A stretch of DNA of 64,000 nt from Argopecten irradians (lineage: Eukaryota > Mollusca > Bivalvia > Pectinida > Pectinidae): contig NC_091134.1 in assembly GCF_041381155.1 (NCBI RefSeq), positions 15,502,008-15,566,007 of the forward strand. Direction: 5' to 3'. The notes beneath the pieces were generated by a model. It saw nothing but the letters and a program-made list of their open reading frames with translations, did no database searches and was not told where the DNA came from. The translations under genes and the position numbers were made by a program. Below are positions 5,258 to 62,620 of the stretch, piece after piece (position 1 is the stretch's first letter; each line of letters begins with the position of its first letter).

Positions 5258-6912
5258 ATGGGATGCAACAATTCCAAATCAGATGAACATGTACAAGAAC
5301 GATTACGATTGTTCTTTTGGAGAAAAAGGAACAAGGTAAAGTATTTTCAAGTTTTCGAGATTTCGCAATGAATGTTAAAATTTTGTGTTATATATATGCA
5401 GTTGAACAAAGCTACCTGTAGTATATATACAGGATATGGAAGATGTTTCGTTAATATTTATCATGATTTCTCTTCAGGTCATGCCTATGAGAGCCGAACA
5501 CTTCGTGGAATCTGATGCCGAAAATACCGTTCGCAGAACACAAGCAACCGTGCTGCTGCAGCTGAAAGCTGAAGGTATTGTCCCCAAGAAAGGAAACGGG
5601 GGAGTAGCTTTCGTTGTAAATATGTCAGAGCCCTCCCCCTCAACTATTCTACCTGGTATTCCTGAATGTGAGTGTCAGTACACAACGTACTCTCAAACAT
5701 CGTTTCCGTCTGGAAATCTTCCTCCGAGGCGTCTGCCTCCCATCAACAGCAGGGATGGGTTCAATTACATAGCAATGTAATTAATTAAATTACACATTAC
5801 ATTTTAAAATGGCATTACCATTACATGTATTTTGCAATATAATTAATTAAATTACCATTACTTTACCAATGTAATTAATTAAATTACACATTACTTTCAG
5901 TTTTTACTAAAAGAAAAAGACTTGGCACTATTGTAAAAATAGCTATCTTTATACAATACATATCCATGTACATTTGTATACTAATTTAAGATATGCATTC
6001 ATTAATAATGTACTTTAAATATCCAAATATTACATTTAAAAGAACAGTCCATTGTCGATACAATCATATCAAAGTACATTTAATTTTTTACGTTACATGT
6101 AACTTTGCCACTTTTGAAATTCTATAAATGTGACGGTCAATGTAATGTATTTTACCCCATATTTTTGTCTATATCTATATAAATGTATATTAATTTTCTT
6201 AAACTAATTTGTGCTGGAAACTAAATCTTTTATTAAGCCATATACCTATAGTATCACTTTGAATTTCACATTAGGTGTGATTCTAACATTATACCTTGCT
6301 CTGCAATAGTGAAGGTAACGACCAATTGTTCATACTTCAGCTGTTTGCCCCAAGGTATGATTATCTATAATTACCAGGTAGCTTGTCTAGACCCCATGTT
6401 CTTCAAACCAAACTTTATTTTGAACCTGATTTAATACAATTAAGGGCATATGTGGGAAAGACATTGTTCTAAAGAACTTTTATCAAACTATATTGTAGAC
6501 ATGCATGTTAACTAATCATAAGAATACTAAAGCTAAAATGAAGACAAAAACATTAGGAAGAACAGAAATATGGAAAATGTAATATGACAAATCTATCTAT
6601 ATTCATATCCTTAAAAAACATCACATGTAATTGAAATGTAATTGAAAAGTAATGGAGCATTACATGCATTTTTGTAATGTAATTAATTAAATTACCATTA
6701 CATATAATTGAAATTTGCTTCAATTACACATTACATTCAATTACTTGAAAATTTGTAATGCATTACAATTAATTACCATTACATTTTTAATTACCCCATG
6801 CCTGATCAACAGAGCCTCTATGGACGCAAAACAGGAGCGGGCAAGAAAAAACAGAGAAAAGAAAAGAGCAGAGAAGAAAGCCAAATGTACAAAATTATCA
6901 TACAGGAAATAA
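5258..6912 (+). CDS. Small N-terminal MGC (acylated?) protein, STMND1-like, with transposon-derived intron
   Basis: Exons 5258-5335, 5478-5758 and 6813-6912 join in frame to give 152 residues. The protein begins MGCNNSKS, a strong N-myristoylation and palmitoylation signal. A helix-like stretch follows (RRTQATVLLQLKAEGIVP, then GGVAFVV), then a proline-rich PPRRLPPI, and a very basic charged tail (KQERARKNREKKRAEKKAK). The layout recalls STMND1 (stathmin-domain-containing 1), but that is only a tentative resemblance. It is probably membrane-anchored and cytoplasmic. The second intron is unusual: it is almost exactly a 1,055-bp hAT-type element. Its donor lies 9 bases inside the element's left end, and its acceptor is the CAG of the second target-site copy. 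Without splicing, translation would stop at 5780. Deleting the element and one target copy also gives an open frame, with one residue in place of four. An AATAAA follows at 6961. Confidence 0.65.
5750..6804. mobile_element. Non-autonomous hAT-type transposon inserted in a coding exon
   Basis: The left end reads CAGGGATGGGTTCAATTAC and the right end, on the complement, reads CAGGCATGGGGTAATTA. Both are typical hAT-like termini. Exact 8-bp copies of ATCAACAG flank it at 5742-5749 and 6805-6812, the target duplication length of hAT elements. The interior is AT-rich, full of ATGTAATTAATTAAATTAC-like motifs in both orientations, and has no transposase. The insertion point is inside a protein-coding sequence: reading across the empty site keeps the frame open. 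Confidence 0.88.
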
Positions 6913-9837: not shown

Positions 9838-10124
9838 AAATGCACTAGATGATTAGGATGTGTGAAGGAGTGGTCTCGATAAAAATAATTAATACATTTT
9901 GAATTCAAGTTGAACACAAAGATTGGGCACCATTTAACAAAGATTCGAAATATTGATTAATTTCACGATTAGAAAACGTACAGAAAGCGTCGTCATCATT
10001 GCATGGTCCCATCAAAGTCAGTAGATGTTGAATGACTTCAACAAAAGGACAACAAGACGCCAAGGAGAGCTTTATATATGCAGTGATGGTTTAAATGTAA
10101 TGACTTTAAACTCAGCACATCGAA

Positions 10125-10524
10125 CAGGATGGATTGACCATCAGACTGGTAGATTGACCAGGATGGATTAACCATCAGACTGGTAGATTGACCAGGATGG
10201 ATTGACCATCAGACTGGTAGATTGACCAGGATGGATTGACCATCAGACTGGTAGATTGACCAGGATGGATTGACCATCAGACTGGTAGATTGACCAGGAT
10301 GGATTGACCATCAGACTGGTAGATTGAACAGGATGGATTGACCATCAGACTGGTAGATTGACCAGGATGGATTGACTATCAGACTGGTAGATTGACCAGG
10401 ATGGATTGACTATCAGACTGGTAGATTGACCAGGATGGATTAACCATCAGACTGGTAGATTGACCAGGATGGATTGACCATCAGACTGGTAAATTGACCA
10501 GGATGGATTGACCATCAGACTGGT
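10125..10524. repeat. 34-bp minisatellite, about 12 copies
   Basis: About 400 bp of tandem units, each holding CAGGATGGATTGACCATC followed by AGACTGGTAGATTGAC. Units differ by single bases (TTAACC, GACTATC, GAACAGG), so there is some divergence between repeats. No open frame suggests coding use. Confidence 0.95.
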
Positions 10525-10902
10525 TATACATGTAGCCATCTAGAGATCAACTAATACAAAATTGCACGATAGTAAGACGTTATAGGCATGTCATGTATGT
10601 GTCTAATTTTAGGTGTGTATTGTGAAATCATCAAGTTTTGGTATTTTGATAGCGAAATCTTATTGTTGACAAGACCATTCCATTGCAAAGACTAAATAAT
10701 GTTTTCGGTATTTTTGTAAAATCTACACAATATGAATCACCTATAGTGGATTCACAGCATTCGACATATTCGTGGATATAGAATTAAAGGCGGCAATGTT
10801 CACACTCCAAAAGAAGGCTAGGTGATGTTGTCACTTGCTTCGATTTAGTTTTGCTCAGATCTATCATTTTTGAAATACAAAATGCTAACATTTGTTACTA
10901 TC

Positions 10903-11452: not shown

Positions 11453-14400
11453 ATGGAAGAAAAACAGAGAAGGGTTTCATCCGGACGAGGAAAAAGCAGA
11501 TCTAATTTACTTTTAGGGTCGGTCGTATATGACAAAGGTACGTAATCTACCTGACAGATGCATGTTAGAAAACGATGGTATCCAATATTGTGAGCCAATC
11601 TATTTTCATGGGAATTTTAATCTCGCAATTTACTGTCTTTATTGTATAGTAAAATGTAGTCGAATATTTTATGGTGATTATTTATTTGTATTTCCTAATT
11701 GGTCACGATAGATGCTAAACGGAATCATACCGGAAATAATTTGGTTTACAAATGCAGAATTTGATTTTTGTATACAATTGTTAATTTACCAAAAGTTTTA
11801 GTGTTTCAAACAACTTGATACTTAGTCAACTAAACTAACTTGTTTAAATGATAAAATTGAGCGATTTAAAATAAATTTCGAGGCTAAGTTTTGCACTTAT
11901 TTCATTAACCTCGTTCAAAGCCCTCGTTCAATACGAGAAGCTTTTGCAGATGTGAACAAAATTTGATATAGATTCCTCTAGTAATAGTTAACAATTTTGT
12001 TTCTTTATTCTTTCTTGCACTTTAGTTTTAAAATGTATTATTTTGATAAATCAAAGGATAAAACTGGCAAAATTTGGATTTTTGTTTTGATCTAATTTTT
12101 ATTGTGACCAAATTTAACTTGTTAAATTACTAATATAAATATATAAAAAAGCATCATCATGTTGTATTTTTTGTCAAACTCACAACATTATAAAACATAT
12201 CAATAATATCGATAATACCCGATAACGTTTGTGCGGGACTATTGTTTCTATTGGTGATGGAATGACGTCAAATGACGTTATCGCGGGATAACGTCATTTC
12301 AGCGCGAAGATTTCAAAGAGTTACGTTCCATCACCACTGGAGATACTAGTCCCGCACAAACGTTATCGGGTATCACGTGGTACGTGAATTAGTCCCATTT
12401 CCTTTCTTGGCCATCCTTTTATAGCATTTAATCATATTACCAATTTCTAATTACAGATATAGGTATTCAGTTTACTACATTTTAAAAAAAAAAATTTTAA
12501 TATGGTTATTCTCAATAATAAATAATCTGGACTACAGATAAGATCCCAGACGGGCCAGTGACCATGTCTGGTAAAAGGGTTCAGATGACCATCATGTTGT
12601 GTCTCACGGTCTTACCTATCCTGGTTCTGTGGGCCTACAGCGTCTTCACACTCACCGACACAATCCACAAGAAAATTGAAAATCAGAGGGTAAGTCAGAA
12701 CTACACTCAATATGTATGGAATATAACGTACACAATCTTTCTTTCGCGGCGTGTAAAACTTCGCGATTCCCATTTCAAAACAAGTTTGCGAATTCAAGAT
12801 TAACATTCGCAGTTTAATTATGGTATAATTCGCGTAGCGGATTCTCACAAAAGTTTGCAAACAAAATTTCTTTCATACCCCGATGAAATTAAAATTAGTG
12901 ACTTCAATGCTTATAATTAATTTTCCAATCTACTTTATAAAATGAATAACGTTTCCACTTACGATTCCATTGATTTTTTTCCAATGGATTATTTTTTTTC
13001 AAAATCAATACGCAACGCCAATGTTTCTATTGTGACGTCACGATAACGTCGAGATTCCGCGCCATTTTCGATTTTTTTTTTCATCGTGGAATGAAAAAAA
13101 ATAATATGCCAATCATAATGCCAGAAACAAAGAAAAAATAATTATTCAGATTTGAAAGCATTGGTTTATATAATGATAAACAATTATCACACAACCAGTG
13201 GAAGTTTCATTGTGACGTTTTGATGACCCAGTACGACGTGTACACTGTCACCTTCTTTAAAAAATAACCTTCAGATACAGTGCCTAAAGAAATGATAGGA
13301 TTACTCGTTATAACTCCGGCGTCATTGGCTTATTTTACTTTTTGATGAGATGAATAAAAATGCACGGAACTTGAATGCTATCGACACTATAACATAATTA
13401 TAGAGCGATTAGGATTTGCGAAAATTGGTCGTCGCAAGAGACTTTAAATATTGTAAAATTAAAAACTTAATTAGGTGTACAGTCGTTGACACGAAATTGC
13501 GAAATCAAGCCGACTTGAAAATGAATTGGTTTTATTGCGGAATCTTACGTTCCATATCATGCTTATTTTATCGATCCAGTAATTTGTCCTTCTTGGACAA
13601 ATTTCTAAGTTAAAATGAGAAATGTTTCTTTATTACATATTTACTTTGGGGTTTTTTTCAGACGAAGAACAACGTGCAACTTAGCGTAGAGCTTGGCAAA
13701 CTGGTACACCACCTCCAACAAGAACGAGACATGAATATTCTATACCTTAGTGCCCTTGGACCTCAGACAAAGATTTTCCTTCTCACAGAATACATCCAAA
13801 CCGACAGGGCAATATACTCCTTGTCGAAATGGCCGGGTGATTTTGATGATAGAAAAAGAGAACAATTCCAGTCTAAGGAACATCTACAAAAGCACCTTTC
13901 TCTACACAGACAAATCATTAGCAAGAATAACTATGATTTAAATGAAGAAATCGATTTCTACACGAGTATAATAGATGCTGTGATCGTGTGGCTCTACAAA
14001 TCAATAACGGAGGGCAAGGTGGCGCAGATCTGGAAGACGCTTGTTGCCTATCTAAAATTAACAAGCGGCAAACAAAACCTTGGAATCGAGCGAGCGCTTG
14101 GCACACTTTTCTTCATCGACGGGCGATTCCAGTCTCAGAAAACATTTGAAATGTACAATAACAGAATAAATCGTTTCCGGGCATTTCACACCACAGCCGA
14201 GCTATACTCCAGTAGGGTCAATAGTCTGTATACTGCTGGTGTTAAAAAGTTCGGAGCGAATGTTACCCAGGTCATCAATTACTACAGACATGAAATCCAA
14301 CATTACACCGAAACGAAAATGATTGCCGATATTCAGACGGCCAGGTTCTGGTTTGATAACATGACACTGTATCTTGACACACTTTTAAATGTTCAGAGGG

Positions 14401-17400
14401 ATTTAGGCTACGAGATTATACAGAGTTTAGACGTAGTTATAGAACAGTCGACACAAGACATCACAATTGGTGCCATATTTCTGGTAATTGTACTTCTCAT
14501 GTGTCCCTTAGTGATATTCGCCACAGAAAACCTTACCAGCGTCATACAGAAGAACTCCCGTTACCTTGCTGTACGTACAGCAGATCTCGCAAATGCAAAC
14601 ATGAAAATTGACCGTGTCCTCTCGGAAATGATGCCCTCAGTCATTGCAGAAAAGATCAAAAGCAATCAAAAGGTAGATGTGGAATACTTTCGGTCGGTGT
14701 CTATCTTGATGGTCGGTATTTATGGATTTAAGGAAGGGTGCGAGCGTACTCCGAAGGAGATTGTGGAGATCGTGGAGAGCCTGTACACCTTGGCAGATTC
14801 CCTTGTCTTACAATTCCAAGTGAACAAACTAGACGGCGTGGATGGATCATTCATCGTTTTCTCTGGTATTTATACATACATATAAAACTACCTTAACCTA
14901 ACACTGACTCAACCAATAGTTGTTTTAGTAACCAATAACCCTTTTAGCTACCTACATCGACCACCGTTATGCAACTGAATATGTTGACCTATTGCATAAT
15001 GCATGTAACTGGCCATAATTTCTTGACCACATCCATTATTGTATACACTCTCTTACTTTGACCACTGACTTAAGCTAATTGGTTTTACGGATATCATGTT
15101 TGGCATAACGCAATTCTATAATCGACAACTCTGTTCTGATCGACTACTTGTAAAACCAAACGTGACAGTAAAGTTCATTAAGATATTTTGAAGTAGTCAA
15201 GTAAATAACGGCGAATGATACGAATAATACAGCGACTACATCAGAAACTCATTACATAGTTAACTTCATGGCACGGCAACAACAAAACGGATAACTATAT
15301 GTCAATAATTTTAAAGGATAATTGTTCAGCGCCGATATCAAGTGGGAATTGTTTAAATAAATGCACATGTAAGAATAAAGCGCTTTTGAATAATTCAAAG
15401 ATTAAATCTTACTGTGTTTAAGTGTCTTTTCATTTTACTTGGACATGCGTATGCTTTTTATTCGACCAGTTTTGTACCGTCGGTTTTAAATGAATGTTTT
15501 TTTTTCTTTCTGTCGCCAGGTTTTCCGAGACGAAATAACATGGAACACTTAACATTAATCGCAGACATTGCATTAGAACTGGTGTCAGAAGTGAAGAATC
15601 GCACAAAGTTTAAAAACAATCTAACTATTAAATGTGGAATGGATACTGGTAAATTTCTTTAATGTCTTCATATCTGTTTACGGTAATTGTTTAATATTGA
15701 CTATTTTACAGGCATTTGACATAACTGACAACCGTGCTTTCAAACAGGTTTGTGTTCTTTTTCGTAACAGACGTATTAATTGTTATCCTATTTGATCTGC
15801 TGTACACCACTGATACCCATTCACGAACGAATAATTTCACAGAATGCACGAATATATAACTGTGCTTATGTTTGTTATTTTACAAATCTTACAGGATATT
15901 GCATAGCTGGAGTGATGGGGAAACAGTTACCAAAATATTTTATGATTGGAAACACAGTCCGTACGGCCAAAAAGCTACAGAATCACAGTAGCAGTAAGTG
16001 TTAACCTGTCATTGTGTTCGAGGATCAGAATCACAGTAGTTGTAAGTATCAACCTGTCATTGTGTTCGAGGTTCAGAATCACAGGAGCAGTAAGTATTAA
16101 TCTGTAATTGTGTTCGAGGTTCAGAATCACAGTAGTAGTATGGATTAACTTTATCAGACCTTTAGATGTATTTTATATCCTCTTTATGTGTGCTAAATTT
16201 TTAATTACTGATATTTGTATATTTTATATTTATCTTGACTATGTGTAAGACGAGCTGCTAAGCTCAACATGTAATCAAATTTAAATAAAGTCTATTATTA
16301 TTATTTTTTTCATTAATAAGTATTAATCTGTCTTTGAGCTCGAGGTTCAGAATCACAGTAGCAGTAAGTATTAACCTGTCTTTGTGTTCGAGGATCAGAA
16401 TCACAGTAACAGTAAGTATTAACCTGTCTTTGTGTTCGAGGATCAGAATCACAGTAGTCGTAAGTATTAACCTGTCTTTGTGTTCGAGGATCAGAATCAC
16501 AGTAGTCGTAAGTATTAACCTGTCTGTGTTCGAGGATCAGAATCACAGTAGTCGTAAGTATAAACCAGCATGATACATTTGTAACTCGTCACTCTGCATT
16601 TATTGCATCCTCGCTTCGCTCGGGTGTATTAAATCCTTTATAATTCGAAAGCTGTGCAAGAACCTTTACTTACACTGTATACTTCCAACCTCTCACAAAA
16701 GAAAAGTGTGTGCAATAAAACCCTCGCTATCACACACGAATCGCATATATTTATACATCTGCGACCAAGTATGTTGATTATCATACCGTTGGATTACCTC
16801 ATCCAAATCAAAATCCTCTCTCAGACTCGTTTCCGTTAATTCTCTAACGATCGACACTTCACCGCTCAGATGATTATCATGAATTTTCTTTTATATCATC
16901 AGACTACCATTTTAAGTTATTGCATGTGATTAAATTTTGGGTATTTGTGCACCTTAGCTCGGTTAATTATTTATTCATTTGACGTTTTCGACATTTGTTT
17001 ATGGTCGCTAACTATCAACCTTATTGTTTTTGTCTGGCAAGTGGTACAACAAACGAATAATATTGTGTAGTAGATTTTATAAATTCGATGAGGATAAAAT
17101 ATCATTCTTTTTGGAGGTCAAATTAATTTCTGAGAAATTAGATTAAAATGAAAAGATAGATTGGCTTTATTAACATATTCATGTTAAAAATTGACAAATT
17201 ATGTCAAAAATTGACAAAAAATCGAACATAAGTAGAAGAGGAGATCGTCTCCCTGCCAAATTAACTACAGTATACATGTACCGTAGCTTATAATAGTTCA
17301 AATATCATTTTTGTTTTTCTTTGTAGATAATCGCATCAACATAAGTAAGGATACGTACGATGCACTGAAAAAGGAGAACGTGTATATGGTAGAGAAATTA

Positions 17401-25550: not shown

Positions 25551-26091
25551 ATGTCCTCATATGACCCTGACTGTTGATGTCTCATTAACATGTCCTCATA
25601 TGAACCTGACTGTTGGTGTCTCCTTGACACATGTCCTCATATGACCCTGATTGTTTGTCCTCCTTGACAATTGTCCTCATATGACCCTGACTGTTGGTGT
25701 CTCCTTGACACATGTCCTCATATGACCCTGACTGTTGGTGTCTCCTTGACACATGTCCTCATATGACCCTGATTGTTGGTGTCTCCTTGACACATGTCCT
25801 CATATGACCCTGACTGTTGGTATCTCCTTGACACCTGTCCTCATATGACCCTGACTGTTGGTGTCTCCTTGACACATGTCCTCATATGACCCTGATTGTT
25901 GGTGTCTCCTTGACACATGTCCTCATATGACCCTGACTGTTGGTATCTCCTTGACACCTGTCCTCATATGACCCTGACTGTTGGTGTCTCCTTGACACAT
26001 GTCCTCATATGACCCTGACTGTTGGTATCTCCTTGACACATGTCCTCATATGACCCTGATTGTTGGTGTCTCCTTGACACATGCCCTCATA
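25551..26091. repeat. 41-bp minisatellite, about 13 copies
   Basis: Tandem units contain TGTCCTCATATGACCCTGAC and TGTTGGTGTCTCCTTGACAC. Variants (GATTGTTGG, GGTATCTCC, CACCTG) alternate along the array in a way that suggests higher-order duplication of two- to three-unit blocks. Confidence 0.95.
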
Positions 26092-26879
26092 TAAAAACCC
26101 CTATTGGTCTCCGAGGATGCTGTTTATATGTTGCATTGGAAACTAAAATTGGAGATAAAAATATATATATATAACTAACTTTTCTATGTTAGTAAAATAT
26201 TATCAAGACAAACTGGAAGTGAATGCAGACTAGGTTTTGGTTTAAACAAGTGATTGCAATTGTTTATGCTTAATGATACCACTTTCTGATTTTACTGCTG
26301 CAGTTGGATATAACATGATTGGAATAAGAATGGAGAAAGTAAGGCACTAATTGTTACCCAGTGTTATATATACTACACTCCTCCCCTGATAACCTGTGTA
26401 CTGTGTCTTGTCTGTAATAAGCCCAAGATCTATGTAACTTAGTTATCTGGATCAAAATATTATATATGTCACATATATATGCATGCAATAAGAAATACAC
26501 TCATGGTTGATAAAAACAAATGCACAAATGGAATGCACAGCGAGTTTAGATATATGAAAATCTTTTAACAAATTCTCAATAAAGGAAAGACCTACATAAG
26601 TCGGACATTAGGCTTGTACCATTAAAGTGTGTTTTATACAACACTTTCAAGTTTGTTTACTTGAATGACCTTGACCTACTTCCAAAGTAACAGTGGTCAA
26701 ATATATCAGAAACTAACCATTCAAAATTACAGTGGTCAAAATATATTCCTATTATACAATATCTGAAATTTAATTAGTTGAAGCAGATGTGAGCATTTTC
26801 AGCCCTTATGATTCTTTTCCCACTACTATATACTATGACCATGTTGTGTTATACTAATAGTCAGATGGACCTTAATGCC

Positions 26880-27508: not shown

Positions 27509-27870
27509 TTAAAGATGCTCCACCGCCGACAGAGCATAAATGATATTCATTATTTGAACAATAATTGGTGTTCAATCGTGTGTATGTATGTCTAATTAAC
27601 ACAAAAAATAATACCAGTATATAAATTTTCATTTTGGTGCATGCGCAATCAGTACTTCATTCCATATAGGATACAGTGCCACGGATTTTTTCGGGATGCA
27701 ATTAATTGTTTTTCATATTTTAACTTGAATTAGAATTAGAAGCTCAAACTTTTCGATGGTGATAATGGTGTAAAATAAGTAATTTTTGTAACTGAAGAAA
27801 AATACTTAATCATATGCTCCTGTTTTTAATAGTGAAAAAATACTATCGGTCAGCAGTGGAGCATCTTTAA
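27509..27870. mobile_element. TTAA-flanked MITE, family A, copy 2
   Basis: Same family and orientation as the element at 2567: the ends are AGATGCTCCACCGCCGACA and its near complement, with TTAA on both sides and about 362 bp length. Internal landmarks shared by all copies are CAATAATTGGTGTT, GGTGCATGCGCAATCAGTAC and CGGGATGCAATTAATT. It sits directly after the ~155-bp tandem block. Confidence 0.85.
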
Positions 27871-30800
27871 ATATTGAATCAATTTCAATAAAAACTTTGC
27901 AACAATGTTTAGGTTACCCTCTATAGATGTGCGTGTAGGTTTTTTTGTCAAAGTTTTTGTTGTCATGGTAACCAAATTAAGAATGGTGTCGCATAGTCTT
28001 AGTAATAATAAACACACTGATTGGATTAACTTCAATTACAAAAACATGTATTTCTTGGGCTTATCATACACAAGATAGGTACCATATATTGTGTACATAT
28101 ACATTTTGTGGACTAACCTATTTGCACTGAAAAATGTACAGTGTTTGTCATTCTATATTTTACATAGAACTGATGGCTCTTTAAACAAAATTTAGTGAAA
28201 TATAAACTTTTTGAACTATAGAGCAACAAGACCTTCAATTATTTGGTAACTGTAAAGCTATAGGTTCAATTTCTTTTGAAATACTAAGAATTCAACTAAT
28301 TCTTTGGCTTATGCAAGCTTGATGAGTTAGCAAGCTAGTTTGAGTTGTGTAACAATGATTGCAGTTCCTCACATGTTTTAAGGGGATTGGGGCACTCTTA
28401 AAGGTCTGGAACTCGAGATTCCCATACTAAGATATTTTCAGTCAAAGATGCAGGAAAATTATATATATATAATTATGTCAGGGGAATTGTAAAGCCCTAG
28501 TGTGGAATATATCTGCAATCAGGCAAGGCTAGACAGTTGCATGTAATGCATAGATAAAATTACAAAATAAAATAAGTACTGCACAATAAAATATACTCTG
28601 AATCTGAATTGAATGTACTGTCAAACCTATCGTAGTGACCATCTTGGTATAAGTAAATACCACCTGTTTATTCAGACCGCTTTTTCCGGGTCTCAATTTC
28701 AGCACAATTTCCCCCGTGTACATAATAAAAGACCTGTAAGCACCATTTTTTCTTATCCCTTGGAAGGTCTTTATAGACAGGTTTGACTGGACATATGCTT
28801 TTTCTGTGCAAAATAATTATAGCTTATGATTTTTTTCTCAAATTTCTCCACTACTTATATATAGCTAGAGCTAGCTTAAGCTTGTGGAACATATTGTGAG
28901 TATCTTACATCCAGCAAAAACAAACAAAAACATTATCAATTAAGTAAATTATTTACATGTGTCCTGTAGAAGTATTTATCAGATTGTGTTATAAAGATTA
29001 TCATAGGTTTTCTCTGAAACATATAAACCTTTATTCCTAATTAAATCATTATCTTGATTTGCCTAGCTAGTTTGTGATAAAGATACATGCATATGTACGT
29101 GATTTGCATAATATAAGGACAATAAATTTGCATATCCTTTATGTGAAACCTTGAATATTTATATATAATGCACAGACGTTGTTGGACGAAATGATACCTT
29201 ATATCCACAGATGTTGGTAACAGTATCCCTACACTGCATGTATATAGCTTTCACTGTTGTTTTGTTCATTATATGATTAATGTTATATTAATGCACAGGG
29301 GCATGTCACCTTGCAGGGGCTACTGTGTTGTAAAATTGTATGAGGTAATACAGTATAATTTATTGCCCATCTCCCCATACATGTATAACGTTTCATGCCC
29401 CTGTGTGTATCAATCATTAATGGTAACTGGAAACAATGTTGAAAGATCAATATTTTTCATTTTTCGCAGTGTATATTAATAAGGTTATGTAATTTGAAAA
29501 TTTGTATAGAAACCTATACCAAAATTGCTAAAATGTCATTTCAATAAAATTGCTAAAATGTCATTCCCATTTGATGAGCTTTAATTGGATTCAGTCAAAA
29601 TCCTGCATATGTGATCATGTTCAAATTCTGAAAAATGAGAACCAGGAAGGATATCTGTAATGATATACAAATATATCATGCTATACATATTTTATGTATA
29701 TATGTTTATTTTCATAAATGTGAAAGAAGTAAAATAAGCATTAAATCTGAATAATTTATCTTTCAGGGCAATTTTGAGTTGCAAACATATTTTATACTGT
29801 AATTTCATGTAGATGGCTGATTGCATGCTGGAGCACTAGTAACAAAGTCACTGGTGTCAAAAAGGATAAATTGTATGATCACTCCTTAAAAATGTTAAAT
29901 ACAATGGTCATGTGATATTCCATGGTTCTAGTCTTCAAGATCATGCTGGAGTGTAGTGTTAATTTTGATTTGCATTCATGTAAATTAACGACATTCCAAT
30001 TGATAATTGAAAGTTACAAATGGAACACTGGCAAGAGATGGAAAAAATTAAGAAAAATAACAAAAGTAAAGATTTTTCCCTAGATCTTTAGTTCAGATAT
30101 GCAATTACGTCCCATCTTTTTGGATTTCATATGTACATCAGCTATAATCAAGTTTATGAGCTTTGTGAAAACACAACATTTCCAAAGATTGCCATGGAAA
30201 CATCAAATTAAAGTTGGATATATATATATATAGGTGTCACCCTGGTATAAATGTCAAATGACCACCTCCCTTAATTGACATGCATGGATATTTCGAACTG
30301 GAGATCAAAGCAAATGATAAAATGCAGAGAAATTACATAATGCTATAGACTGATATTGATTATTTAAGCCCTGAATTAGCTGCATATGCATGTTCAGTAA
30401 TCAGTTAGCTTTGACCTAAGCTGTGGCGGGGAATGCCGATAACAGAATTATACAGATGTACATGGAATGATAAAATATGCTCACGATACATGTATGTGCT
30501 TTACCTTAAATTTGTATAGAGTTATACTGGGTAAGAATAATCGTTGGTGCTTTCTAAATATTTAGTGGGTATATAAATCACTGACGACAATGCCATATTG
30601 ATATTTAAGTATATATGTTCAGATTACAATGATCCAAACGCCTTCAAAATATTTTTTGTTTAAAAGGTAATACGTACAGAATTTTTGGTATATAAAATGT
30701 ACTGGCGAATTGTTTTTTGTCAGCATTGTGTCTTTATGATAAAAAATATTAATGGCTAAAAATGACTGATCAAGACTATTAAATGTGAAAATATTTTTGT

Positions 30801-35500: not shown

Positions 35501-38500
35501 GTTTTACAACTTTTTATTGCATTACAATTGTTCTTGTTATAACATATGTACATTATATAACTTGCACAAGTCTTTTCACATGAGAATCATGACGTAATAA
35601 TGTGTCTCAAAAAGGCATATCATTGTTTACTGTGACAGATTAATGTGCCATGAGTACATACAGAAAAAGATAAAATATGGCTGGCATTTTGTCCACAGCT
35701 TTCATTTTAGTTCCCTAATAAGGACCCAGGGACCCCTTTGTTACAATTTTTAAATCCCCAATGTACTAATTACAGCAAAATACTAATTAATATACCGCTG
35801 TTTCGAAGAGGGATAAACCTCTTATATGCAGCAACAACAGAAAAGTGATAATTTTAACATAGGGATGAAAATATCAAAGTGGGGTTGATAATATTAGGGA
35901 AAGACATTAATTTTTAAAGATTTTGTTAGAAATTAATGATATGATAATTCTGCTAAAACTTGATGGAAATTGACAGTTTTTACATTGGTTTGAGCTGGCA
36001 AAATTATCACATTTGAGATAACATATAACCAGATGTGTAAAACATATTAAACTTTGATATTTCTTTTAAAAACTGAAAGACAATAGTAGCACTAGTGCCA
36101 CATACCTGACTTAATTCACCTGAACAGCTGATAATAATGATAAATTGGCAATAACAATTATATATTAAATTTCACTCTCCAGCTTGATCTTAAAGCTCCT
36201 ATAAAACTTAACACTGTTAAAAAGGTTAAAATCAACATCACGATAAACATATTTTGCCTATTGATGTCATATTATATATAATTAAGTGACAGTCACATTT
36301 GAAGCTCAGATTTTCAAGCCATCTTTACACAATACAATTCGAGTGTTTAACCATATTGTTTACCTTTAGTACCAAGGTAATATATACGAAGACTGGTCAA
36401 TGTATGTGTGTACCCGAAGCTTCATGGTCTAATAATTAACTGGTACAGCACACTGTTGACAAACCTATAAAATGAAGTTGTCTTGTGACTTTATATTCAT
36501 GAGGTGGGTATATATACATGTATATATGCACACATATGGGTGTACATGTGATTACACATCGATACCTTCCTGTTACTTGAACTTTTGGTTCTGAAGGCAT
36601 AAATTGTCTCGGGTTTTTGTTTTATTAGGATATACCCAATGTCGACGCATTATCGTGTGTGTATTTAAACACCATAGGGTTTAATTTCTTAGAAGATATC
36701 ACAGTTTGGTTAAATACCTTGACAGGGTAAGAACTTAATTGTCATCGTATAAATCAGCGATGGATCCAGCTGAATATAATGCTCAGGTGAGAGGAAATTG
36801 TGTGTCTGAGATATTGAGTTATGATTTATTTGTTTTTGTTAGAGTTCATTTGATAAACCATTCTAAGGAGTTGGGGTCCGTGCTGAGGGGGATGGGGGTA
36901 GGGAGGGGGGGTTGGATGTAGTGAATTGGAGGAGACAGGGGCAGAGATGAATGGGTTGGTGCTGAAAGGGGATGAAGGGAGGATATGGAGAGGGGGACAG
37001 GTGATTCAGGGCGTGCTATTGATAATGCCTTACCTGAGGCTGCCTGAATCTACTGATACAATTACAATAGCTGCATCGTAAGTGTTTTGGCTTTAGAACT
37101 ACACTGTATATCAGATGTATAAAGAAGCTGACATATAATTTTGAAAAAGTAAGCTTGTATGGATTTCTAGGGTAGTAAAATTCAATTATTACATTGAATG
37201 ATGAATTGTTTGATTACTGAAGATGGGGTTTCTGCTTTATTGTCTTACCTGAGATTGTCTGTTAGCACACTGTAACTGAGTTCGGTTTTAGTAATGGGAA
37301 GACTATCGATCAATTTAAATGGCTAACAGGGAACTAAAATGTAGCTAGAACAAGTTCAGAATTCTAGTGTAGTGAAGTCCATCCCATTACTACCTTTATA
37401 GGATGGTATGGTCACAGTTTTGAATATATGTATGTAAATGTAGTGACTGTTTCTGTCTCCTAATTACTGTATGAAATCAGGTCCATCTTTGTCTGTATTA
37501 ATTCAGGATTCATTTTTGGGCTCTGGATTAGAAGATATAGTGATACATGTATTGTGTAAATATGCTTTATTATAGGTAGATCTTTAGACATGTATGTGTA
37601 TTAAAGATGCTCCATCATGGACAAATGATATTTTTTCTCTCTCTCGAAAACAGGAACAGACAATATTTTTCTTCAGTTACAAAAGTTACAATGTACTTAC
37701 TTTACACCATTACCACCACTGAAAAGTTTGAGCTTCTCGTTTCACTCAAAGATGAAAATGTTAAAAATAATTAATTGCATCTCAAAAGAATCTGTGGCAC
37801 TTATGTCTTATATGGAATGAAGTACTAATTGTGCATGCACCAAAAGCAAAATAAATGATCTTGTATGATTTTTTTGTTTGTTAATTAGACATATATATAT
37901 ATAGACATATATATACATAATGTATATATGCACGATAAAACACTAATTATTGTTCAAATTGTGAGTATCGTTTTGACTCTGTTGGTGATAGAGCATCTGT
38001 AAATTAAGATTTGAGATTTTGTAAGAAGACTTACATAGACAATGCCTGTTGTCTTATTCCTTTGACATTGACGCCGACATTGTCAATGAAATTGTTTGAA
38101 AAATTTAATTACCTATAGGATAGGTAACCTGGATGCTTATTTGAGCTATGTGTTTAAAGGGTCCATTTAGTAAATTACCAGCTTAAAATTATTCTCAAAT
38201 CACACCAAAGGCTAATCATCGGCTCATATTTTCTGTATAATTCTAACGGCAAGACTTATTCATGCCTTGCATGCATGGTCTTAATTATCTGTCCTAAAGC
38301 TGCAAAGTTTCTACAGAAATAACATATTCATAACCATGCAGGTCTTGAGAGATCATTGCAAGGCAGGCCTATATTGGGGTGTCAAGAAAAAAGCAGCATT
38401 TCTATCACAGATATCATGTGCTTGCATTATATTGTTGAGGCAAAACACAGTGTGGATCAGGGGTATGGACATACATTATAAGCCCATATGGTACAAAAAC

Positions 38501-41500
38501 ACTTAAAGCTCCCCCAGACTAAAGCTCCTAGGACATGAAGCCCCTTAAGCTTGTACAAAAGCACCTCCATACTGTGGAATAATGTACAAATCCCTTCTGG
38601 ACAAAAGCCCTTTTGACATTACCCCTGTGCACAAAAAAACTTAAATACTATATTGAAAAAGAGAACAAATGCCCTTTTATATTTCAAAAACTGTAAAAAT
38701 GGATAAAAAAAAGGGGAAAAAAAAGACATACATATTTGGATGAACACGTTGATGTGCATGGGATGCTTAAGATTAGCTGTTTTATAATATTAAACAACAC
38801 CTATTTTAGTTCCTTGGTTTACATGAGGTTGACCTCTGGCCTCAGTTCTAACAAGATTGTCTAGGGGGTGCTGTTGACAGTCGATGCTCATGATTTATCA
38901 ATATACCAATGAAAGGAAGTCTTTGAGATGTCGACTGTAGTGGTGAAAGAATCTGTGTAGAATGGTTGGGCGTTAGTATTGACATCGTCAAGTCTAATCT
39001 TCGTGGTTTTTATGGGGACTTACAGCAGTATTGATGAAATGATTGTCACCCATGGATACATGTACAATACAGTATGTTGAATAAGACAATTATGTTTATT
39101 TTATTGTGTGTGTTGATTTTAAAATGTCCTATTTAAATGTTCTATTTAAAAGAATAGTTAGAAAAAATGTACAGTATGCTAAATAGTACACATACTTTAA
39201 TTCTATACAATGCAATTTTTGTATAAAACATTGTGAAGATAGATAATATTAAATAATTGAATTCCATTCAGAATTCAAATTAGGATAAACAAATAAATGA
39301 ATTGTATTAAGATTAACTGTAATACATTTTTTAACATTTGAAGATTAACATTCAATTTGATAAAAACAAAGTTTGTCAATATATTGTACAGCATACAGCT
39401 GCCATTATGTACATGTACATGCCTTATAATGATTATTCTAATTCTCTTCATTTCTGAACAAACAGATGAGCACTCAGGGTTAATTCTAATTCTCTTCATT
39501 TCTGAACAAACAGATGAGCACTCAGGGTTAATTCTAATTCTCTTCACTTCTGAACAAACAGATGAGCACTTAGGGTTAATTCTAATTCTCTTCACTTCTG
39601 AACAAACAGATGAGCACTCAGAGTTATAATTCTAATTTTCTTCGTTTCTGAACAAACAGATGAGCACTCAGGGTTAATTCCAATTCTCTTCACTTCTGAA
39701 CAAACAGATGAGCACTCAGGGTTAATTCTAATTCTCTTCATTTCTGAACAAACAGATGAGCACTCAGGGTTAATTCTAATTCTCTTCATTTCTGAACAAA
39801 CAGATGAGCACTTAGGGTTAATTCCAATTCTCTTCACTTCTGAACAAACAGATGAGCACTCAGGGTTAATTCTAATTCTCTTCATTTCTGAACAAACAGA
39901 TGAGCACTCAGGGTTAATTCTAATTCTCTTCATTTCTGAACAAACAGATGAGCACTCAGGGTTATAAACGAACCAACTTTGAGGAAGATGACATTTCAAA
40001 CACCAGCAACCCTCCAGCCCTCGACTTTAACGCCGGCGTCGTCTTCAAGGGTGGACTGTCGCTATGGCAAAAGAAATCCATCATGGAAAGAGTCCTTCTA
40101 ATTCTAACCATCGTCTTGTCAATCACCGTCATCATTCTGGCCATAGTACTGGCCTCAAAACAGGCACACATCACCTATCTTCAGAATTCATGTGAGTATA
40201 ACAGGTGTACAGTAAAACGTATGTTTATAACGAACACATTTTCAACAAATTCATGGTTATAATGGAGTCATTTTCATTCCTTTGTTTACAATATTTCTTC
40301 GTTTATCTCTTATGATTTTGTATCTGAAGAATTAATTCTGTTTTTCTATTAATATATTATCTGCACATGAGAGCAGGTTTTCATTGGTGCATCATTAACT
40401 TTTTATATAATATATCCATCATTTTCGTTTCTTTTTTATGCATTTATACTGCCCACAAGGGGAGATAATTTAGCCATGAATGACATTACATTAGATTGTT
40501 GTAAATTTTGACTTATTTTAAGTACCATATTCGCCATAATTACCTCCCAGGGCACTTAAAAAAATTGTAACACCTACAGGGGTGTTTTTATTAGTGAACT
40601 AAAATGTAACTCAGCAATATTTTAACTTTTTCTCTTCTGCAGCTGTTTGTTTGGAGGCGTCATGTGTACAGGTGTCGAGCTCCATTATAACCGCCATGGA
40701 CAGGTCCGTAGACCCTTGTGATGACTTCTATCAGTATGCCTGTGGAGGCTGGATGAAATCCCACCCGATCCCCTCGGGTCACTCGCGCTTCAGCACCTTC
40801 AGTGTCCTGTGGCAGTCTAATCAGGTCATCATGAAGCACGCCATAGGTTTGTACAATAATATAACCATAGCACATACCTCTTGTGCAGCAAAATCTGTTG
40901 GTTTTCATTTAAAATGAGGAATTCAAATTTCAAAGAATTGAAATTTTATGGTATTGTTTAAGGATTATCATGTAAATTTTTAAAATTGTAAAAAATGTAA
41001 TTTCCATTAAAATAGCTGTTGATTTGGTTGTCTTAGTTTGATTATATACACATTATGGGTTACATCAACTGTTCATGCATTCAGAATAAAATAAATGTTT
41101 TGTATTTAGGATACATCAAATAGCCTTAACTTTCTGTTACTCCTGTGCTAGCATGTTACAAACTGTATATTTCAGAACAACCGGTGAATAAGTCGATAAA
41201 TCTGTCGGAGTGGAAGGCCAAGACCTATTATCTGTCGTGTATGGACGAGAATAAGACGATAGAGGATCTCGGGGCCAAACCGTTACAGGATATACTTCAG
41301 GTATCACAGCTGTCCTTTAACTCTTGCAACCAAACCTTTACTGGACCTAATATATATATATTTCATCAGTATTTGTGAATTTAAGGAGTTTCTTAAATAA
41401 ATTTCTCCAAAGAAAATTAAAAGCATTATATAGGTTAAGGAAAAAATCTTAAGTCTGTGATCTCTAAAAACTTGTATGTTTCTTTTGCTCTTATCAATTA

Positions 41501-47500: not shown

Positions 47501-50500
47501 TAGGCGATAAACCAGTTACGAACTAACTAAAGAAAGGGGGTAGGAGGTGCAGGGTATATAGTGTTACCCATTTCCGTCCAATTCTGTTCCATTTCATCAA
47601 TAACTGGCATCTACTCCACTTGATTTTTAACTGAAAACACAAAGGTAAAGGACTAAAGGTAGAATATAGTAGAACTTGTCTTAACTGACCATTGTCTAAT
47701 ATGGATCCCTGTGTATTACGAAAGTGTATGGCGTTTTCCTTCTTAAAGATGCTCCACCGCTGACAAATGGTATTTTTTCACTATCAAAAACAGGAGCAAA
47801 CAATTTAGTATTTTTCTTCAGTTACAAAAATTACTTTACACCATTACCACCATTGAAAAGTTTAAGCTTCTAATTTTACTTCAAGTTAAAAATATGAAAA
47901 ATAATTAATTGCATCCCGAAAAAATTCCGTGTCACTATATCCTATACGGAATAAAGTACTGATTGCGCATGCACCAAAGGCAAAATAAATTATTTCATAT
48001 TATTTTTTGTGTTAATTAGACATATATATACACGAGTAAACACCAATTATTGTTCAAATGATGAATATCATTTATGCTATGACGGCGGTGGAGCATCTTT
48101 AATTTATAATGATTTATACTTATATAATCCTGAATCCTGACTTTACCGGCTACATACCTTGACAAGTTAGACTTCATGTATCAGGACACCTTAACCACTT
48201 CAGCACTTCAGCCCTACCTAGATATCTAACACATAGTTAGGATTTGCAGGACTGAGTGATCTTTTTCATTTTTTCACCATCTTTCAATTGTTTTGGATAT
48301 GAGATACTTTCTTGATGGTTTTTAACAACAATGATAAAATTGATTGATCACATTGGAATAAATTTTCCCGAAAAAACAAGCTTTGCAGATGCCACATCAT
48401 GTGAAAAATATTGTGCTTTGGTCAGATTTCTTTCTATCCAATGACCTCCAGTTTTCACAATTAGTGTTTATTTCAATATTTATATTCATTGATACTACCT
48501 ACACTGCACTTCTAGGGATGCTTTGCACAGGCATGTATTTTATACAAAGAAAAAACTGAAAAAACTATTTTTGATTGTCAGGTCGGGAATATGACAAGAA
48601 TGGTAACCTCCGACCTTGGTGGAACAATCAGTCTGTGATAAAGTTCAAGGAGAGGGCTGAATGCATACAGAATCAATATTCCCAGTATAAACTGAATGGT
48701 GAAAATGTACGAACATTATAGATATTATAATAACTGCTCTAAGCAAGGATTTATAAGTAAGAAGGATTTGTCACTTGAGGTTTTGGAAGAATATGTCGCG
48801 AAAACTTTTATGTTTGTGCACTGAACATGACGTTGGGCAAAGACTTATTTTCCTTTGATGTCATGCTGGCGCAACCTTTGATGTAGCTTGCAGGTACCAG
48901 GCTTACTGTCTTGCTTTCTGAAGTGGGCTGTTATTTCATGAAATGAGACATTTCCTTTTAAATTTTCCGTCATTAAAACAAGGAATATACATTGTGAAAT
49001 GTATCACGCTTTACATTGTTGTTTCTTTTGACTCAATAAGACAAGTATTTGTTGAGGAAAATGGTTTTTATTCCCGGTTCATAGGTGTCCCGCATGGTGT
49101 TTAGTAGTGTAAAGAGACAGTGACAAATCCTTCTTATTTATAAATCCTTGCTCTAAGTTTAATTCCCACATGTAGTAGATGCTATTAGATTGAGTTGTGG
49201 CCAAGTAATTAACTTAAAAAACACAACTTTTTGTTATTGTTGTACAGTACAGTTTGAACTGATGTTCATGAAACTTTGTGAAGATACTCAGTCAGATTAA
49301 ATTTACCTATTTGGATGGACCTTATAGATTAGAGTTATGGCCCTTTGATTAACGAAAATAATGATTTCTACCGTTTCATAAGTCAAGAGTTAACTGCAGA
49401 CATTATTAAAGAACATAATATTGTTGAAGTTGTTTCTCTTAATACTTTTAATCGTAAATAAGACCCCACCTAACATGTTTTGTAATTTTTTTTCTGTTAA
49501 CCTTATGAGCAAAATTACTTTTATATGTTTTAAACTCTGGAGGTATGAATTCCAAGATTGTGTGTGTTGAATTTAAAGTGACAAAGGAAAGAAAAAGAAA
49601 TGATATTACTATTTTACTGTTTCTGTTTTGATAGGTCAATGGAAAGCTGACATTGGGAGAAAACATAGCTGACAATGGTGGTCTCAAATCTGCCTATCAT
49701 GTAAGTCTTTATTTTCATATATGTCATGTAAATCTGCCCTGCCACACGGATATTGAAAAATAATGTGGCTTGAGTTTGATTACTCTTGATTTCTGAACAT
49801 CATATAGTCCCACCAAAATATGTCAAAATCATCCCAAGGTTTTAAAATAATTTTTCATTAATTTATTTAAAATCGTGAGAAATGTGTAAGTAATGAAAAT
49901 GTTTTCTGTATTGTTTAACAGGCGTATACAGATTGGGTGTCACACAATCAACAAGAGCGCCCTCTACCGGCTTTGAATCTCACACACAAACAGCTCTTCT
50001 TCCTTGGCTTTTCACAGGTATTAAAAAACTGATGTCTTTAAAGAAACACGTGATTGTTTGTTACATGTCTATAAGGAAGGGGAGAGTTCAAGAAAGTTTA
50101 GAACGTTACATAATTTTATGATCTCATCCATCCTCAATCTCCATCGATTACACTCGCTTATGCTTTCTTCATCGAGATCTTCATATAAGATCGTAACCCC
50201 TGCAAATCGAAGATGGATCTCTCCCTGTAATGGTTTTTGTCTTAAAAAAATACCAATATTCATTGTGTCATGTTTCATCATGTGCAGTTACATCCTGTCG
50301 CTTTTGGATGTCATATGGAGGTGGTCAAATTTATGTGCTTTAGACGTTTTCAGTTAAACCGAAAATGATAAAAAATTACATAGATTCTGTCAAAAACAGA
50401 TTAATTTTAAAATCTTTTACTAACAATCTGTATTCTGCCAATACTAATTTGAGTATCTGCCCTTTATTGTAACAAAGATACTTTTAGTGGGTTTTTTTTT

Positions 50501-58325: not shown

Positions 58326-61300
58326 TCATAATCTAATTCCTTCAATATCTTGTGGAGTGATAACTACCGTGCTGTCTCCATGAGAAGCGAAAGTTACTCT
58401 GTTTTCTCCATGCGAGGCGACTTTTGCATTGCTGTGCCCGTTTGTGGCGTCAGCAACCTTGTTGTCTTGTCTTTGGGCGATAGCTAGTTTGCTTTCTCCC
58501 TGTGGGGCGACAGTTGCCTTGCTGTGCCTGTTTTTCACGACACCATACTTTTCCTGTCTTTTGGCGGCAGTTATCGTTACTATGCTCTCTACCTGTAGAG
58601 ATACTGTGAATTTGCCGACACCTACGTGCTCATGTTGAACAACCGTTAAACTGCTACTTTTACTGTTTTCCCAAAATCGCTTCAACCATGGCATACTGAA
58701 TATTGTGTCTTTATCGCTATACATGTCATTATCATCAAAAGTAGAACCACCTGTCGCACATCTTGTCACTAGCATGATGACCAACCCACAGAATCCCACA
58801 CAATGGGAAATTAATGCGCTGAGTGCTGGTCTCTCTGGTAGAAGCAACGCTGTCTGCAGATTCCATACTCCTCTCCAGCTTGTCACAGTAACGGCAGAGG
58901 CAAGGAAAAGGTAGCATTTCGCTATGCAACTTTTGAAAGCTTTCATAGCAATGTTTGTTTCTTTTTTCTTACAGTAATTTCGGATACTTCTCTCTCCTAG
59001 AAGGAGAGGAAACGCAAAAGTGACGCACATGAAAAAAGAGATATAGGCGGAAAGGGCCGGGTCTTCCGGAAGTAGGTAATCATCTGCGAGGTTCCACGAA
59101 AGTCGCCAAGATACAACTATCAAGAGATTGAACACAACGGAATCATAGAGACCATATATGAACAGCCAAACCCAGTCCCTTATGTGCTGAAAATACAAAA
59201 GTAACAAGACAGTATTTAAAAAAATGAAAAAAACCTACAATGTATCAAACACATTCTGTATAAAATTTACTAAGTGAAATACGAAACGGTCCACATATAG
59301 GACATCAGCTCCGTAATTTATTTTTTTATTTTCGAGTCAAAATTAAAAAATAATAATTATACCCATTAAATCATTGTATCAGCGTGGAGTAACAACTTAA
59401 TGATTAAGTGGTCAATCAAAGACCGTCAAAATTCCATCTCTGGCCAAATGCACACATGGGCCATTTAAAAAATCTACATTTCAACTCGGCATACGCAAAG
59501 GTTTTTTTTTACAAAGGCGATTTTCTGCCAAATTCATGAGAGGACCATTGCAATAGCCTCTTAATAAAGTATACACCTATTATGTAAGTATCTTGAATGT
59601 CTATTTTTAATCATGTATACATCGCATCGAAAGTCTATTTTCATTCGTTTAATTGTTTTGTTCCTTTTACCATGTATTGACATAGCTTGTTTGTTTGTTT
59701 GTTTGATTAATTAACGTCCTATTAACAACTATGGTCATGTAAGGACGGCCTCCCATGTATGCTGTGTGTTGCGTGTTAGTTGTGCGAGGTGCGTGTTTTG
59801 GGAGACTGCGGTATATTTATGTAGTGTCTTCTTGTATAGTGGAACTGTTGTCCTTTTTATAGTGCTACATCACTGAAGCATGCCGCCGAAAGACACAAAA
59901 TAACACACCCCACCCAGTCACATTATACTGACAACGGGTGAACCAGTCGTCCCACTCCCTGTATGCTGAGCGCCGAGCAGGAGCAGAAACTACCTCTTTT
60001 ATAGACTTTGGTGTGTCTCGGCCAGGGGACAGAACCCAGAGCCATCCTTACAGTGACGAACACTCAACTCAAGGCAAAAAGTGAGGCGGTGCCAAGGGAG
60101 GCATTAGGAAGGATAAAGTAAGTTAGAAAGAAGAGAAAATATAAAATTTTTAATTTAGTCGTCTTTTACGATCAAGCAATAGGGGCAGCAGGTACAAATG
60201 TAACGCCCTACCTGCAGGGACCATTGACATAGCTCTCTCACTAAGATATAGTACACTTTGTATCGTTATGTCATTAATATAATGTCCCATTTATTGATCC
60301 AGTGATGATAACTTGTTACCACATGACTTTAAGTGGAGTTATCATTATAGTACAACATTGCGCTTGGTCCATGGGGCAGCACTTCTGGCCCCGATTTCTC
60401 GAAACAAACTTAAGTCCAAAACTGGCTTAAGTTTTCATATAAGTTACATAAGGAGAAAAAAACTTAAGTTTTGACTAAAGTCTGCACTTTTTTTTTCGAG
60501 AAATCGAGGCCTGGTCCATGGGGCAGCACTTCAATAACGTATACAATTAAATTCATTGTTGTTGTATTCGGGATTCAACAACAAACACACAAACAACGAT
60601 AGTTTCAACACGGCGGCAAATATCTTAAATTATACAGTATACAATTGATCCATTACGTCTTTTACAACAAAGTTACCGAAGGGACCATTTCAGAAAACTT
60701 ATTTATCTTTGTTCGCTATTGACATTAATTATCAGCGATACACTATATCCCATCCACTTCTATGTAGGACTCTGATGTCATCATTCATAACTTATTTATC
60801 TGTTGACCTGATGTGTTGATATTTGTTTGATAACATCATCTTATCATCGAGTGCCTTAAAATCAAACAACATCGTGTTATACTTAAAGCCTTACCTCTAT
60901 AAAATGCATATCTAATACTAACAGTTCATCAATCCACATCAGTTCGTTATCTAACGTTAGTTAGACATTATATTTAAAATAGGGTATGAAATATTAACCC
61001 TCAGCCCATTTCATGAAACAGATGTCAAATTTTTTACATTTTTTTCAGTTTTAACTGTTCGATAAATCAGTGTTAGGATGTATTTGATTAAAAAAAATAG
61101 AACAAATACCTCAATGATATAATGAATCAATTAAAAACCAAACAGTGATAAAAATAATTATAACGCAGTTATATCGAAAGTACAATTGATTTATATGTCA
61201 TTTATTTATTTTTATTTACCTATTATTTATTCAGCGTCAACGAATAGATTTATAGACATACTTACAGAGTTGAAAAGTTAAATGGTGACGGTAACGTAAT

Positions 61301-62289
61301 CAAAATATATGTTCATTTCCGATTTTAAATATAAACCATTGAAAATGTTAAAAGAAATAAACACATTTATAATGTTTCGTACAGATGTGTATTGAGGCTT
61401 ATTTATTACTTTGATAACGAGATAAAAGCAAATGTGTTAATGTGTTCTATTAATGTATTATTTACTTCCTTGAGGATAGAACAAATGCACTGTCAAGGCA
61501 GGTGTAATCGATTTCCTAAGACATTACACTAATGAATTAGAAGAAATATGCAACCAGGTATGACACCGGTGATGAATTAATCAAGGTTTTATAGAGGCAG
61601 AATCGTTTAAAATAGACCATGCCAGGTATAATTCGCTATAGTCAAATAAGCTATATGTACAAATTTGAATAACAACATCGTGTAATTATATTTCCTCAAC
61701 TTGCCTGGTGATAAAATAAATTATTAATGAACTCTTTAACTGATTTTGTGTTGGATTAGAACCAAATTTATAAGGAACTACTCACTTGTATTTGTCTACT
61801 GATTTCTGTGACTGTGAAGTAATCTTCTGTGTCAAAGTCATGCTGCAGACATGTAGGTTGTCCAGCGATGACATTAATTTTTCCAAGTCCTGATAGGATG
61901 AACATTCCAATCAGCCCGCCTAGGAATGAGTTAAGCCATTCTGTGGTGAGATAAAGATCAAACAGCCCCCAGTACCCCCTCCATTGGAGTATCGTGGCGT
62001 TACCAACGACGTAGGCATGTACACGTGAGACAATGAGGAACAAAACGGGGTATTTATCTGGTAATAAAAATCTGTTCAACGGGATCTGCAACAGGGTAAA
62101 GAACGATAATATGAGAGTACCTACACAAAAGGACACCCACAAGCTAAGTTCATAGTCCTCTGGCATGAAGTATAGGTCAATTAGATCCCACGATCCTCTC
62201 CAAAAGAAGTACACAAGAGGTGCAATTATAACAAAATTGATGAATGTATCAATAGATGAGAGTAATGCGTCTCTAGTGTAAGGCTTCAT
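58326..62289 (-). CDS. Fuseless-family multipass membrane protein
   Basis: Two coding exons on the minus strand, 61786-62289 and 58326-59186, join in phase 0 to give 454 residues. Four related two-helix repeats are visible, each with a W-x-x-x-W core followed by acidic/proline residues: WRGSWDLIDLYFMPEDYELS, WRGYWGLFDLYLTTEWLNS, WRLSWNLADDYLLPEDPALS and WRGVWNLQTALLLPERPALS. That implies about eight membrane spans, as in Drosophila Fuseless, a presynaptic protein linked to calcium-channel placement. Two repeats lie in each exon. The tail after about residue 330 is hydrophilic and made of imperfect 10-11-residue units (ASHGENRVTF, ASHGDSTVVI). The open frame extends nine codons upstream of the ATG at 62289 but contains no other ATG before a stop. 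Whether there is an upstream exon cannot be excluded. Intron 59187-61785 holds a SINE-like element. Confidence 0.8.
59187..61785 (-). other. Intron of the Fuseless-family gene
   Basis: The intron is 2.6 kb, with donor CAA|GTGAGT and acceptor TTTTCAG|CAC on the minus strand. Apart from the retroposon at 59688-60222 it holds AT-rich sequence and a short near-repeat of CTGGTCCATGGGGCAGCACTT-type phrases (near 60363 and 60512). I see no other gene in it. Confidence 0.6.
59688..60222 (-). mobile_element. SINE-like retroposon with 12-bp target duplication
   Basis: ATTGACATAGCT flanks the element exactly (59676-59687 and 60223-60234). Read on the minus strand it starts GGTCCCTGCAGGTAGGGCG and ends in (CAAA)n, seen on the plus strand as TTTG repeats. 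The length, tail and target duplication fit a SINE-type or other short non-LTR retroposon. A widespread mollusc family is likely, but I cannot name it. No coding frame. Confidence 0.82.
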
Positions 62290-62620
62290 ACTGATCGGAG
62301 TTTTCTCATAATACAATACTGATTGTACTCCGTATCAGATTAGAAGTCCACAATGTAGATATAAAGCACTATTAAATATCAAAGCAGTTAATACACTGTT
62401 GAATTATATTCGCGTTTTCATGACCAACGACATGTAGAAGAGACTACCTTCATGATTTAAATTAATGCATAATTTACTGGGTGAAATCGTCCGTTAAATA
62501 TAACGCGAAAGTTGAAAGCAAGCAAGTTCATAATACAATTTGTAATTATATCGATTATATTCACACCTTTCTCTTACTGCTGATTGCATATAAAGTAGCG
62601 TTTATGCAGTCTAGATAATA

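Follow-up and report, generated by a model that had tools for sequence, protein, structure and literature searches.

Does a transposable element that lies inside a coding exon of a scallop gene act as a new intron, or does it truncate the protein? The question is raised by a locus in a 64-kb stretch of Argopecten irradians DNA (the whole stretch analyzed, here called the window), where a gene whose product starts with MGC carries a 1,055-bp element in its last coding exon. An earlier note on this DNA had proposed an intron role for the element, with a truncating insertion allele as the alternative. We find that the alternative fits better than the intron reading. To our mind the probability is about 0.7 that this is a non-autonomous hAT-type insertion, probably of the Ac group, in the last coding exon and that read-through truncates one member of a scallop family of small proteins. 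The element, its target duplication, the open empty site, the stop within the element, and a deposited protein with that end are all directly seen. The features of the locus are as follows.

5258..5335, + strand: coding exon 1 (MGCNNSK...RNK), whose translation matches the deposited protein P0001 at 100% and also matches relatives
5336..5477, + strand: ordinary intron 1 (AAG/GTAAAG ... CTCTTCAG/GTC), required to yield P0001
5478..5749, + strand: coding exon 2, portion 5' of the element
5742..5749, + strand: target duplication, copy 1 (ATCAACAG)
5750..6804, + strand: probable non-autonomous hAT-type element, 1,055 bp, with ends CAGGGATGGG / CCCATGCCTG and subterminal repeats
5759..5760, + strand: proposed donor TGG/GTTCAA, weak, at -3.45 bits and the 27.6th percentile among the 3,715 GTs of the window
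5777..5778, + strand: alternative in-frame donor AAT/GTAATT, better (2.62 bits, 83.4th percentile; three of four consensus bases)
5778..5780, + strand: in-frame stop TAA within the element, which ends the read-through protein and agrees with the end of P0001
6805..6812, + strand: target duplication, copy 2 (ATCAACAG), ending in the AG that could serve as acceptor (5.8 bits, 94.8th percentile among the 3,193 AGs)
6813..6912, + strand: coding exon 2, portion 3' of the element, open in the empty-site frame and aligning with P0002 to P0010
6961..6966, + strand: AATAAA, a poly(A) signal-like hexamer

The structure of the insertion is as the earlier note described it, coordinates included. An exact 8-bp duplication, ATCAACAG (8 of 8 bases identical; 5742-5749 and 6805-6812, + strand), flanks the 1,055-bp element at 5750-6804, and the left end of the element, CAGGGATGGG, agrees at 9 of 10 bases with the reverse complement of its right end, CAGGCATGGG. 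CAGGG-type ends are typical of hAT elements. A GTAATTAATTAAATTAC-like motif recurs several times in the subterminal regions. Inside the element no stop-to-stop frame reaches 90 aa, and each of its + strand frames contains 24 to 27 stops. We scanned the 64-kb window for exact 8-bp duplications, with copies 100 to 3,000 bp apart, flanking inverted ends that agree at 9 or more of 10 bases. Three pairs were found; CAGG ends occur in one of them, the element at 5750-6804, and the other two are AT-rich or T/A-rich. First-order Markov sequences of window length gave 0 to 2 pairs per run (20 runs, 11 pairs in total), and none of the pairs in a further 10 Markov runs was CAGG ended. A duplication with inverted ends is not rare on its own; together with hAT-like ends it is.

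The target duplication has T at position 2 and A at position 7 and so fits nTnnnnAn, the consensus of the Ac group; it has AA at positions 4 and 5, where the Buster consensus reads nnnTAnnn (both consensuses as given in excerpts of PMC8961557 and PMC3517528). Because of the duplication length, the short inverted ends, and the fit to nTnnnnAn, the element is probably a non-autonomous hAT-type element of the Ac group, a placement drawn from a single insertion. According to the part of PMC3517528 used here, hAT elements have an 8-bp duplication, terminal inverted repeats of 5 to 27 bp, and a length below 4 kb, and the 8-bp duplication, short inverted ends, and length of less than 4 kb are shared by the present element and non-autonomous, MITE-like Ac-group hATs. 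Its duplication likewise fits the Ac pattern (PMC8961557, in part), and it has no coding frame of note. It differs from them in that neither an autonomous partner nor a second copy of the element was found within the 64-kb window. A 24-base subterminal pattern had 0 matches among viral contigs. The 19-base left end had two matches among bacterial genome contigs, which we take as chance, since similarity stops after 19 to 29 bases. A predicted RNA fold pairs both ends of the element; it was obtained without shuffled controls at that length and is given no weight.

That the insertion falls within the coding sequence of the MGC-start gene and that the empty site is open, both claimed previously, also held. 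The flanks joined through one target copy give an unbroken frame of 149 aa, and the original stop of the host gene is the TAA at 6910-6912. The MGC start is possibly lipid-modified. Searched against proteins, the empty-site product matched 11 of 16 candidates at E up to 1, every one of the 11 from a scallop: four from A. irradians (P0001, P0002, P0006, and P0011), three from Pecten maximus, three from Ylistrum balloti, and one from Mizuhopecten yessoensis. Nine of them (P0002 to P0010) align across the insertion point, the exceptions being P0001, which is truncated, and P0011, which is rearranged there. As the alignment indicates, the exon that received the element is a conserved coding one and its gene belongs to a multi-copy scallop family, since the 149-aa empty-site protein aligns across the junction with 9 of the 11 matches.

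Two relatives carry extra residues exactly at the insertion point (window 5749/6813), four in P0010 (SKSI) and one in P0002, which reflects either length tolerance or an exon edge in those paralogs. P0011, which lies on a contig as long as the one that bears P0001 (75,513,862 bases), keeps the core QTVLMQLKAEGIVPKKGNGGVAFVV and a tail, AEKKAKCTK, like that of the host gene, with GRTGKG-type repeats in place of the family sequence around the insertion point; it may be a degenerate duplicate, or its model may be doubtful.

No known domain was recognized with confidence in the host protein by Pfam, PDB profile, or Foldseek searches. Pfam returned 0 families at E up to 10 for the 149-aa empty-site protein and only scattered weak matches for the 12 members of alignment A1 (VGCC_beta4Aa_N in two, best E 0.33; DUF630 in one, 0.0052; DUF6321 in one, 0.16), and a PDB profile search found no match with an E of 10 or below. 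The structure model of P0003 is of low overall confidence (mean pLDDT 63.5, pTM 0.26). It contains a helix at residues 127 to 164, with block means of 85 to 96 for residues 121 to 160, that begins directly after the insertion position, and a low-confidence linker precedes this helix at the insertion point. Foldseek matches to this model numbered 19 at an E cutoff of 10 and 0 at 0.001. A stathmin-like hairpin and helix was considered; it was backed by no tool and is not claimed.

The fate of the interrupted gene is suggested by P0001. This deposited A. irradians protein of 126 aa, the best of the 11 matches, agrees with the read-through product of the locus at every residue, even those that the element encodes; its C terminus, ...PPINSRDGFNYIAM, is the unspliced reading up to the TAA at 5778, which lies at element bases 29 to 31. 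No spliced tail from the locus is present among the 11 returned proteins. Because P0001 is a predicted model, it weighs against splicing of the element without settling the matter.

In the course of events that we favor, a hAT transposase supplied from elsewhere would have inserted the element by cut-and-paste, duplicating 8 bp. The transcript would run into the element, and translation would end at element bases 29 to 31, giving the 126-aa protein. This product would be without the conserved basic C-terminal helix; the loss itself is given by the alignment, and its consequence we infer. The truncated product would presumably be the main one, and the allele would amount to a reduction or loss of function that may be tolerated through paralogs. 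Loss of one gene is plausible because A. irradians has four family members. Besides the status of P0001 as a predicted model, further observations speak against truncation. Downstream of the element, 6813-6912 has kept an open, conserved frame, a state compatible with a spliced allele as well as with a recent insertion. There is also a fair acceptor (6812), together with an in-frame donor of moderate strength (5777).

These two sites lead to the reading in which the element is removed as a new intron, from the donor at 5777 or 5759 to the AG of the second target copy, yielding 158 or 152 aa compared with 149 aa. We regard such removal as unlikely; its product would be a near-normal protein with a few added residues ahead of the basic helix. 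The parts of the proposal are real: as the earlier note had said, the transposon has a GT nine bases in from its left end (5759-5760), the second target copy ends in CAG, and joining 5758 to 6813 keeps the frame and turns one residue into four. The change is from R to SRDG, giving 152 aa in place of the 149 aa of the empty site. Joining the donor at 5777 to 6813 also restores the frame, with 158 aa, and removes the stop at 5778 as well. The surroundings might accommodate the added residues: in the P0003 model the insertion coincides with the beginning of a helix that follows a low-confidence linker, and two relatives tolerate one or four extra residues at this point.

The candidate sites are of unequal quality. 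Splice scores were computed with vertebrate-type weights, not scallop-trained ones, and their calibration is thin: on this scale the donor and acceptor of host intron 1 reach the 98.0th and 99.3rd percentiles of window GTs and AGs, respectively. For the neighboring cyclase gene, the best GT or AG near four exon edges reached percentiles of 99.8 and 87.1 (donors) and 96.7 and 100.0 (acceptors); these four were picked by score in intervals taken from P0012 matches and are not independent controls. The acceptor at 6812, at the 94.8th percentile, favors splicing. Its 5.8 bits compare with 10.2 bits for the AG of copy 1, which scores higher because the pyrimidine-rich CGTCTGCCTCCC stayed beside copy 1. 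The donor at 5759, matching 0 of the 4 consensus bases at +3 to +6, is very weak; the one at 5777 is no more than moderate. The donor of host intron 1 has 2 of 4 of these bases despite its 98.0th percentile; therefore, the count at +3 to +6 cannot by itself exclude a donor. The donors at 5759 and 5777 would both face competition from four stronger ones (98.1st to 98.8th percentiles), one at 5668 within the exon and three within the element (6315, 6355, and 6378), none of which restores the full protein.

The in-frame layout could appear to argue for the intron, and its weight was assessed by placing the element at trial positions in this coding sequence. A frame-restoring GT-AG layout, defined as a donor at 9 or 27 with an AG in or adjoining the second target copy, arose at 93 of 410 positions. 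With a donor nine bases in, any duplication ending in AG keeps the frame, and 34 of the 410 trial duplications end in AG. The pattern nTnnnnAn is matched by 22 of the 410; 3 of these have a terminal AG, and 4 have the frame-restoring layout. The layout is a mild coincidence and not a sign of adaptation. Given this frequency, a donor at the 27.6th percentile, and the read-through end of P0001, intron function by way of the GT at 5759 is not supported. We give little credence to a more general version, in which splicing through 5777 would yield the 158-aa protein and this hAT family would be predisposed to form frame-preserving mollusc introns whenever target position 8 is G. Such a predisposition would arise because the number of retained nucleotides (9 or 27) is divisible by three and because A is favored at position 7 of Ac-type duplications.

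Precedents exist for removal of such elements. Maize Ds, also a hAT element, is reported to be spliced as introns (titles cited in PMC3260210), and Ds1 carries donors 12, 22, or 33 bp from its end (excerpted from PMC5432752). The present element resembles Ds and Ds1 in being a hAT in a coding exon with donors near its end, at 9 and 27 bases; it differs in that splicing is published for maize, whereas here there are candidate sites only and the deposited product is unspliced. A second comparison is with introners. As described in the portions of PMC9860276 considered here, some introners bring their own 5' splice site and rely on the target duplication for the 3' site, four amino acids are added by one of them, and many families, though not all, bear signs of DNA transposition (a duplication and/or inverted ends). 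Inverted ends and a target duplication are shared by the transposon-derived introners of that survey and the scallop element. Introners occur as large families whose copies are spliced, the median length per family being 30 to 654 nt in the same portions of PMC9860276, whereas this is one insertion of 1,055 bp whose deposited product is unspliced.

As it stands, the locus is a clean but ordinary transposon break of one family gene in which the empty site remains readable. Were splicing shown, the locus would stand as an animal equivalent of the Ds introns of maize, and the birth of an intron from a hAT element could be studied in it directly. It would then be a mollusc case of interest as well, since the consulted portions of the PMC9860276 survey place introners, among animals and land plants, in two groups only, both of them animals. 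Even so, splicing here would be of a kind already described in maize Ds and introners.

A different outcome, which we consider improbable, is mixed cryptic splicing, in which the donors at 5668 or at 6315, 6355, and 6378 would be joined to the acceptor at 6812 and the resulting frameshifted or early-stop transcripts would perhaps be decayed. All four donors stand at the 98.1st to 98.8th percentiles of GTs; joining 5668 to 6812 yields a product without the original tail, and the donors in the element lie 3' of the stop at 5778. Against this, the deposited model has no such intron ahead of its stop, and the case for these donors rests on scores. The site at 5668 is a near-consensus donor, AAT/GTGAGT, within the coding exon (98.4th percentile), and it might be active only where the insertion provides a downstream acceptor. 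That the element inserted within a pre-existing intron is very improbable, and we reject it: the extra residues of P0002 (one) and P0010 (four) might lie at an exon boundary of these paralogs, but nothing except the element and one target copy separates the coding halves, and their removal leaves an unbroken conserved frame. Truncation by the hAT-type insertion remains our preferred reading.

Other features were observed in the window. A dispersed repeat of about 360 bp is present at 2567-2934, 27509-27873, and 47743-48102, with a partial copy at 37694-37874; at least three copies and one partial copy thus occur, in both orientations and 80 to 95% alike. Four tandem arrays, at 10017-10592, 15925-16567, 25578-26192, and 39339-40015, have units of 34, 48, 41, and 48 bp, respectively. 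The neighboring cyclase gene, at 12522-15662 (+ strand), joins a nitrate/nitrite-sensing (NIT) domain to a guanylate cyclase domain. Among the matches listed for it, the best overall is P0012 from Pecten maximus (76%) and the best from A. irradians is P0015 (52%), with no near-identical A. irradians protein among them. Finally, 40603-40917 (+ strand) and 58326-59234 and 61768-62334 (- strand) contain exons of two genes, one for a peptidase M13 (neprilysin-type) and one of the Fuseless family.
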